Shown: positions 16,347 to 17,805 of the stretch, piece by piece | Layout: the number at the start of each line of letters is the position of its first letter | Position numbering within the stretch: position 1 is the stretch's first letter | Assembly: GCF_027158205.1 (NCBI RefSeq) | Contig: NZ_JAPVLU010000002.1 | Coordinates: 70,961 to 134,960, forward strand | Source of the DNA: Streptomyces sp. H39-S7 | GTDB taxonomy: Bacteria; Actinomycetota; Actinomycetes; Streptomycetales; Streptomycetaceae | DNA: 64,000 bases | Direction of reading: 5' to 3' | Program-made: the position numbers and the translations under genes | The notes under the pieces: model-generated | What the model was told of the DNA's origin: nothing | Databases searched by the model: none | Seen by the model: the letters and a program-made list of their open reading frames with translations, nothing else

Positions 16347-16580
16347 ATGATCAAGAAGATCGTCGCCGCTGTTGCCGTATCCGGTGGTCTCGTGCTCGCC
16401 GGTGCGGGTCTTGCCGTTGCCGACGCCGACGCGCACGGTGCCGCTGTCGGGTCCCCGGGTGTGCTCTCGGGCAACCTGATCCAGGTCCCCGTTCACGTCC
16501 CGGTCAACCTCTGTGGCAACACGGTTTCCGTGATCGGTCTGCTGAACCCCGCCTTCGGCAACGTCTGCGTCAACCAGTGA
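16347..16580 (+). CDS. chpH: Short chaplin (ChpH type)
   Basis: This 77-aa secreted protein has a signal peptide (positive start MIKK, hydrophobic core, cleavage near VADADA) and one chaplin domain with VNLCGNTVSVIGLLNPAFGN and two cysteines expected to form a disulphide. Short chaplins are amyloid-forming surfactants that coat aerial hyphae and spores. Sequence and position beside a long chaplin match S. coelicolor ChpH. The start is fixed by an ideal AGGAGG 6 nt upstream. In S. coelicolor the pair is controlled by the bld/SapB cascade; no specific binding site was identified here. Confidence 0.95.
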   Translation: MIKKIVAAVAVSGGLVLAGAGLAVADADAHGAAVGSPGVLSGNLIQVPVHVPVNLCGNTVSVIGLLNPAFGNVCVNQ

Positions 16581-16755: not shown

Positions 16756-17805
16756 ATGCGACAGGTCGCGAAAAAGGGCCTGATCACGGTGGTCGCGACG
16801 GGCGGCGTACTCGCCGCCGGCAGCGGCTTCGCGTTTGCGGACTCGGGTGCCGTCGGCACCACGTCCGACTCGCCGGGCGTCGGCTCCGGCAACAACGTCC
16901 AGGTGCCGGTGCACGTACCGGTGAACCTGTGCGGGAACACGGCGAGCGTCATCGGTCTGCTGAACCCGGCGATGGGCAACAGCTGCGCGAACACCTCGGT
17001 CCACGGGGGACGGGGCGGAGCGGGTTCCACCGGCGCTGTGGCGCACGGCGGTGCCTCGCACTCGCCGGGCGTCCTCTCCGGCAACTCGGCGCAGGTTCCG
17101 ATCGGCGTTCCGGTCAACGCGTGCGGCAACAGCGTCTCCGTGATCGGCGCGCTCAACCCCGCGATGGGCAACGGCTGCGCCAACGAGGAGTGGCACGCGC
17201 CGCACGACGACAGTGACGACTGCGTCGACCACCCCGGCGGTCAGCACGGGACCCCCGGCGGCCATCAGGGGACCCCCGGTCACCCGGGGCACCCGGGTCA
17301 GCCCGGTCACCCCGGAAATCCGGGCGCTCCGGGTCACCCCGGTCAGCCTGGCCACCCCGGAAACCCGGGTCACCCGGGTCAGCCTGGGAACCCCGGCAAC
17401 CCCGGTCATCCCGGCAACCCCGGTCACCCCGGAAACCCCGGCCACCCGGGCCACCCCGGTCAGCCCGGCAACCCCAACACCCCCGGCAACCCCAACACCC
17501 CCGGCAACCCGAACACCCCCGGCAACCCGAACACCCCCGGTAACCCCGGAACCCCGGGTACCGGTACCCCGGGTCACCCCGGTGCCGGGCACGGCCAGCC
17601 TGGCGCGCACGTTCAGCCCGCCGTTCACACCCACCCGGCCGGGCCGTCGGTCCACCACTACACGCCGGCTGCTCGCCACGCGGCTCCGACCGCTGAGCTG
17701 GCCGCTACCGGTGCCGGGTCGCTCGGGATGGCGTTGCCGACCAGTGCCGCGCTGCTGCTCGGTGGCGGGATGCTCTACCGCCGTAACCGCGCCGCCCGTC
17801 GCTGA
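16756..17805 (+). CDS. chpC: Long, sortase-anchored chaplin with collagen-like linker (ChpC type)
   Basis: The 349-aa product has a signal peptide (cleavage near AFADS, residue about 29), two chaplin domains (about 36-79 and 101-143, each with two cysteines and the NxCGN...SVIG core), and an extra cysteine at 156. A collagen-like stretch of Pro-Gly-X triplets fills about residues 164-271. The C-terminus has the sortase signal LAATG (315-319), a hydrophobic segment and an arginine tail. Class E sortases anchor such proteins to peptidoglycan, where they seed assembly of short chaplins. I recall S. coelicolor ChpC as about 260 aa, so the linker is expanded. The start is ATG 16756, with GGGGAAGG upstream. 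Confidence 0.95.
   Translation: MRQVAKKGLITVVATGGVLAAGSGFAFADSGAVGTTSDSPGVGSGNNVQVPVHVPVNLCGNTASVIGLLNPAMGNSCANTSVHGGRGGAGSTGAVAHGGASHSPGVLSGNSAQVPIGVPVNACGNSVSVIGALNPAMGNGCANEEWHAPHDDSDDCVDHPGGQHGTPGGHQGTPGHPGHPGQPGHPGNPGAPGHPGQPGHPGNPGHPGQPGNPGNPGHPGNPGHPGNPGHPGHPGQPGNPNTPGNPNTPGNPNTPGNPNTPGNPGTPGTGTPGHPGAGHGQPGAHVQPAVHTHPAGPSVHHYTPAARHAAPTAELAATGAGSLGMALPTSAALLLGGGMLYRRNRAARR
17266..17568 (+). repeat. Coding Pro-Gly-X repeat array in the long chaplin
   Basis: In-frame 9-nt units encode Pro-Gly-His/Gln/Asn, grouped into larger blocks, ending in four copies of an 18-nt unit encoding Gly-Asn-Pro-Asn-Thr-Pro (about 17467-17538). The near-identical DNA units suggest recent slippage and likely length variation between strains. 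Confidence 0.9.

Follow-up and report, generated by a model that had tools for sequence, protein, structure and literature searches.

The window, the whole stretch of DNA that was analysed (64,000 nucleotides from Streptomyces sp. H39-S7), carries a gene for a long, wall-anchored chaplin of the ChpC type, with a gene for a short, ChpH-like chaplin directly upstream. The features of the two genes, in window positions, are as follows.

16347..16580, + strand: short chaplin, ChpH-like, 77 amino acids, the upstream partner (open reading frame; PF03777, E 3.6e-29)
16756..17805, + strand: long wall-anchored chaplin, ChpC-type, 349 amino acids (open reading frame; two PF03777 stretches; LAATG read directly)
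16756..16842, + strand: predicted Sec signal peptide, about residues 1–29 (MRQVAKKG, a hydrophobic core and AFA read directly)
16825..17187, + strand: chaplin head of two chaplin domains, about residues 24–144, two Cys in each (PF03777)
17188..17697, + strand: linker of 170 amino acids (residues 145–314) from the second chaplin domain to the sorting signal (P 25%, G 24%, H 14%)
17269..17475, + strand: 23 uninterrupted Gly-X-Pro triplets, residues 172–240 (X is His in 10, Asn in 7, Gln in 4, Thr in 1 and Ala in 1)
17467..17538, + strand: four GNPNTP hexads encoded by 18-base units in two forms one base apart (read from the sequence)
17698..17802, + strand: LAATG sorting signal (residues 315–319), hydrophobic segment and basic tail RRNRAARR (read directly)

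The signal peptide was assigned by eye, and its cleavage site is a predicted one. PF03777 matches the 349-residue protein with an E-value of 9.9e-48 and 160 bits (cut-off 21) in two stretches, the stronger of which covers residues 24–79; the two chaplin domains and the LAATG signal of the preliminary description are thus confirmed. In an alignment of 11 chaplin sequences, C59, C77, C123 and C141 are among the invariant columns, and L315, A316, T318 and G319 of the sorting signal show no variation. A ChpH-like gene directly upstream is the ChpC-type gene order, which we take to be that of S. coelicolor. Of 124 anchored-chaplin rows, 96 have a short chaplin upstream within a set distance, as do 89 of the 116 distinct linkers; some genomes stand twice among the rows. 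With the domains, a LAXTG-type signal and the upstream ChpH-like gene all present, the protein is a long chaplin (ChpA–C) by each feature that can be tested from sequence. Like ChpA–C of S. coelicolor, as far as these are covered by the accessible published descriptions, it has two chaplin domains and a C-terminal LAXTG signal, with a class E sortase as the expected anchoring enzyme; unlike them, it is 349 rather than about 225 residues long (PMC5618241) and has a Gly-X-Pro linker. Its own genome (G000) has 18 sortase-domain matches, classes pooled, and 16 chaplin-domain matches. The two other two-domain anchored chaplins read in this genome have proline-rich linkers that lack runs of Gly-X-Pro (GXP).

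The GXP run reaches 24 triplets if the GHQ just before it is included. The first GNPNTP hexad shares residues with the last GXP triplet; after the fourth comes a short, mixed and ragged tail. The hexads keep Pro at each third residue and Gly only at each sixth, so that Gly is missing in alternate triplets; overall, 32 consecutive prolines stand at period 3. In total, the linker contains 33 PG dipeptides and, with all registers counted, 32 G-X-P; no X residue of the GXP block is charged. In 20,000 shuffles of the 170 residues, the longest G-X-P run was at most six, compared with the 23 observed. The preliminary description had counted about 35 Pro-Gly-X triplets. The collagen-like run is real, and the number is too high for it: 23 consecutive GXP triplets give way to GNPNTP hexads, and 35 sits near the total of PG dipeptides, not the length of the unbroken run. 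The near-identical DNA units also described there are found only in the four 18-base GNPNTP units. In the main block, the 23 nine-base units comprise 15 distinct sequences with a mean pairwise identity of 73%. The array lies in a draft assembly of 146 contigs, which could have mis-sized it.

The codons of the block point to selection at the protein level. Among the Gly and Pro codons of the 23 triplets, the third base departs from the commonest one in 22 of 46 cases, as against none of 92 first and second bases (Fisher p 4e-13). Because the third bases have diverged and the first and second bases are unchanged, the GXP block is no fresh duplication. In this gene, purifying selection maintains the glycines and the prolines of the 23 triplets alike, and Gly is therefore not free here.

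Pfam Collagen scores 41.9 bits (cut-off 27.2) at 17314–17487 of the window (G000:C69:88274-88447) when the genome contigs are scanned. In the whole-protein scan, it scores 40 bits without any single stretch passing by itself, and the highest stretch named is residues 84–100, between the chaplin domains. Descent from collagens of solved structure was considered and rejected: the top PDB match, 8zxl (E 8e-86), is a fibril of GAPGSQGAPGLQ repeats whose best domains score 33–38 bits, and we read it as a match of composition. A literature search listed nothing on 8zxl. An AlphaFold2 model of the single chain has a mean pLDDT of 41 and a pTM of 0.18. Its best-scored residues are inside the GXP block (blocks of 73–79 at residues 191–220), one chain being uninformative on trimers.

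The preliminary description had gone further and proposed a trimeric rod that changes chaplin display. In a true collagen, three chains would join through their GXP blocks in a triple helix, and the resulting trimeric rods would hold six chaplin domains at a constant distance from the wall. The 23 uninterrupted triplets, the Pfam Collagen score above its cut-off and the purifying selection on both Gly and Pro codons all speak for such a structure. According to the accessible text of PMC4066190, eight of the eight bacterial collagens expressed by 2014 form triple helices, with Tm values of about 35–39 °C and without hydroxyproline; GXP blocks of 20–30 triplets could for this reason trimerise at soil temperatures. 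Against it, no trimerisation domain was recognised: Pfam finds only ChpA-C and Collagen, and three NCBIfam matches fall below their cut-offs (a trimeriser of a new kind would escape such a scan), whereas Scl2 is described as having a globular one in the part of the source available. The X residues are nearly all Thr, Asn, His or Gln, whereas the accessible part of PMC3707005 calls the collagen domain of Scl1/Scl2 highly charged. Each chain would also be expected to be anchored separately.

To place the linker among its relatives, the 146-residue head was searched in genome contigs and the best 80 of 263 relatives were retained, a choice that biases this wide set toward heads like that of the window protein. 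Four rows (L032, L035, L088 and L090) were left out as they have no sorting motif at the expected place, L088 also lacking part of the head; the wide set has 77 linkers including that of the window, and seven of its rows also belong to the genus sample described below. The median linker of these 77 anchored long chaplins is 90 residues, as compared to 170 in the window protein. The longest are those of L055 (172 once trimmed to the part after its last domain; its uncut 232 residues, and probably the linker of L060, include a third chaplin domain), the window protein (170) and L053 and L013 (both about 161). Proline makes up 12–38% and glycine 0–33% over all 77. At least eight consecutive GXP triplets are found in 15 of the 77, 10 of them outside the genus sample; examples come from S. 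griseoluteus, S. exfoliatus, S. zaomyceticus, S. tropicalis, S. calidiresistens and S. longispororuber. Relative L089 has up to 34 consecutive triplets, a length that again favours a true collagen. A further 16 linkers have at least eight prolines at period 3 without eight consecutive GXP triplets, and the remaining 46 are of other designs, such as PPxEPP. The statement of the preliminary description that ordinary linkers are shorter is borne out by the median; that they are not collagen-like holds for most and fails for 15 of the 77.

The GXP linker is usual within the GTDB genus of this genome and scattered elsewhere. A chaplin head match is present in 35 of 35 genomes searched in the genus, and 30 of 34 yield an anchored chaplin directly preceded by a short one (G043 was left out; G031, G032, G036 and G037 yielded none). 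Of these 30 genomes, 19 have at least eight consecutive GXP triplets, in a count that takes the best linker per genome and includes 12 extra regions picked by hand, mostly for their ChpH neighbours. Among the ChpH-adjacent anchored chaplins of the wide set, the GXP type accounts for 14 of 55, or 10 of 48 once the seven genus members are removed. The preliminary description took a linker shared by most ChpC orthologues as evidence against its own proposal. Within the genus the majority do share the linker type, and outside it the majority do not. In another family of the same order, 10 anchored chaplins have GXP runs of at most one triplet and linkers of 38–84 residues, and nine of the 10 have a short chaplin upstream; the order relative G022 (L128) yielded no anchored open reading frame, and G019 no locus. 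Six chaplins of that family (L112, L113, L115, L116, L118 and L119) have four chaplin domains and linkers of about 40 residues. Within the GTDB genus itself, the ChpH-adjacent L123 and L124 have Gly/His-rich linkers with 6–7% Pro and LARTG signals.

Collagen tolerates no change at its glycine position (PMC3707005, accessible text). We therefore compared losses of Gly and Pro in each GXP linker over the longest in-register stretch bounded by full GXP triplets, a rule that is symmetric for the two residues. Over 751 interior triplets of 29 distinct GXP linkers, Gly is lost 42 times and Pro five times. Linker by linker, 19 lose more Gly, three lose more Pro and seven tie, six of the ties being fully intact. 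Without bounding, and with the ends included, the 15 wide-set GXP linkers have 48 Pro-only, 25 Gly-only and 329 full triplets; the direction is the same and the effect weaker. The counts of Gly loss are inflated by tandem copying (the four NTP of the window linker belong to one array), and the rows share ancestry. For comparison, a sample of human collagen α2(I), made of two stretches that overlap by 11 residues, has Gly in all of its 53 triplets, of which only 20 have Pro at Y. Across the relatives, the Pro register is kept better than the Gly register, the reverse of the constraint in collagen, and the 42 Gly losses against five of Pro count against a true collagen. A triple helix can tolerate interruptions. 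The window linker has the long uninterrupted Gly-X-Y run of a bacterial collagen. No trimerisation domain is recognised in the protein, and Gly is not fixed at every third residue across its relatives, where six of 29 linkers are intact. It is collagen-like in sequence and fails two tested features of bacterial collagens.

Two further readings of the linker concern the X position. In the 29 GXP linkers, Thr, Asn, His and Gln make up 676 of 734 X residues, and Thr is the commonest (293 of 734). O-mannose on the Thr of GTP triplets could make the linker a glycosylated, mucin-like stalk that forms a stiff layer of the coat, and a Streptomyces coelicolor glycoproteome has been described (PMC6593405, as far as its accessible text goes). 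Yet in the window block Thr is only one of 23 X residues, and the word chaplin is absent from the main text of the glycoproteome paper (PMC6593405); we regard glycosylation as an extremely unlikely explanation. Histidine offers the second. GHP triplets are on average on the head side and GTP/GNP triplets on the wall side in the window block (17269–17475) and in L013, L014, L062, L073, L101–L103, L114, L129, L132, L143 and L144. A GHP block near the head might bind metal ions or sense pH, with the repeat pattern serving only to space the histidines. The window linker is 14% His, GHP is on average nearer the chaplin head in 13 of 13 GXP linkers with at least three GHP and at least three GTP/GNP, and some non-collagen linkers of relatives are also rich in His (up to 0.30 in L030). 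These 13 rows, however, share ancestry, and the GXP linkers of L054, L056, L066 and L089 have only 1–2% His, so that a functional His-rich stalk seems to us highly unlikely.

Linker types have been exchanged on related heads. A tree was built from the heads alone (77 rows, 144 columns, linker excluded); with so few columns, many forks are open and the exact number of changes is soft. On this tree, the presence of at least eight GXP triplets requires six changes (6–7 in bootstraps, with at least four forced by starred branches), and all three linker classes together require 14. The GXP labels are clearly clustered, with none of 500 shuffles as low, and linker type is thus inherited between changes. 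The heads of L042 (Streptomyces sp. ST2-7A), L049 (S. alkaliphilus) and L051 (S. calidiresistens) are 98–99% identical in amino acids and 95–96% in DNA, and their C-terminal flanks are near-identical. Their linkers are of the VDPPVNPP/DTPDT, PENPEKPEN and GEPGTPGNP types, respectively; the three form a natural linker-swap series, with unrelated designs on near-identical heads. Length evolves fast as well, since in the sister species represented by L129 and L130 the head DNA is 98.4% identical and the linkers are 165 and 134 residues. The swap of an entire linker between near-identical heads in L042, L049 and L051 is a further point against a true collagen. With linker types exchanged, Gly lost 42 times to five for Pro and no trimerisation domain recognised, the trimeric rod of the preliminary description is not upheld, and we judge a triple helix in the window protein unlikely. 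Much the same doubt applies to the broader proposal that chaplin spacers of streptomycetes with Pro at period 3 repeatedly became true collagen, the cleanest and longest GXP blocks trimerising as stalks; collagen would then have been born de novo several times as Gly replaced the residue after Pro. If this improbable course were true, L049 and L051 would be the before and after of a collagen birth.

We instead consider it probable that the linker is an extended, proline-ruled wall spacer, whose collagen-like look is recurrent, mostly incidental and not the basis of a trimeric rod. The exchangeability of the linkers and the proline rule lead to this reading; the window linker is proline-rich, has Pro in period 3 and is located between a folded part and a sorting signal. 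According to the accessible parts of the sources, class E sortases cut LAXTG and attach ChpC to the wall (PMC5148588), and co-assembly of long with short chaplins is the proposed way in which the amyloid layer is tethered (PMC5618241, PMC7766987). After export of the long chaplin, a class E sortase would cut it at LAATG and link it to the peptidoglycan; its two chaplin domains would then co-assemble with short chaplins, tethering the amyloid coat. The linker would be a single-stranded, polyproline-II-like chain by which the head crosses the wall. Chemically it may be only loosely constrained, being extended, hydrophilic and often having Pro at every third residue. Slippage and point changes could turn P-x-x spacers into P-G-x and back, and because loose constraint would let the two interconvert, the collagen-like look would recur and be mostly incidental. 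An extended chain measures about 0.31 nm per residue. By this general geometry, the 170-residue linker would span some 50 nm, about 21 nm of it in the GXP block. Against a spacer stand the conservation of both Gly and Pro in the window gene and the six intact linkers among the 29. Nor is the proline rule absolute, as the linkers of L123 and L124 have only 6–7% Pro.

Known wall-anchored proteins resemble the window protein in part. Scl1/Scl2, in the accessible descriptions, are likewise surface proteins in which a Gly-X-Y stretch joins a globular head to a wall anchor of the Gram-positive kind. The window protein differs from them in having no recognised trimerisation domain and no charged X in its block; in addition, its chaplin relatives keep Pro better than Gly, and a triple helix of its block is hypothetical. 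The pilin FctB has, like the window linker, Pro at every third residue before the sorting motif; its polyproline-II tail, PXPPXXPXXPXXPXXP, has been proposed to be a wall spacer (PMC3707005, accessible text). Unlike the FctB tail, the window linker has Gly after nearly every Pro and is about 10 times longer (170 against 15 residues). The linkers of other streptomycete long chaplins, with PPxEPP, PExPEx or PPVTV repeats, occupy the same place next to a related head and a LAXTG-type signal, sometimes in sister species (L042, L049 and L051), and differ in having no Gly at every third residue. Among the matches listed by a literature search that most subscription papers lie outside, we found no description of chaplin linkers as collagen-like.

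According to the accessible literature, aerial hyphae can stand because of their hydrophobic coat, and long chaplins are proposed to tether this coat covalently. As the kind of linker differs between near-identical proteins, a linker-swap experiment has already been done by nature. The comparison of L042, L049 and L051 bears both on what a wall spacer needs and on when a Gly-X-Pro repeat becomes collagen. A Pfam Collagen match in a sortase substrate need not imply a triple helix.

The Pfam Collagen matches in the genome of the window number six in total. L093 and L096 are the window linker itself, and L094, which has five stops, is the antisense of this linker. The frames suggest that L095 is an out-of-frame reading, and L097 and L098 are under the cut-off. 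From reading its sequence, we assign L097 (about 1501–1590; G000:C64:128471-128560) to an HtrA-like serine protease with eight PGQ repeats before a membrane segment; Pro-Gly-X spacers thus also occur in a non-chaplin protein of the same genome.
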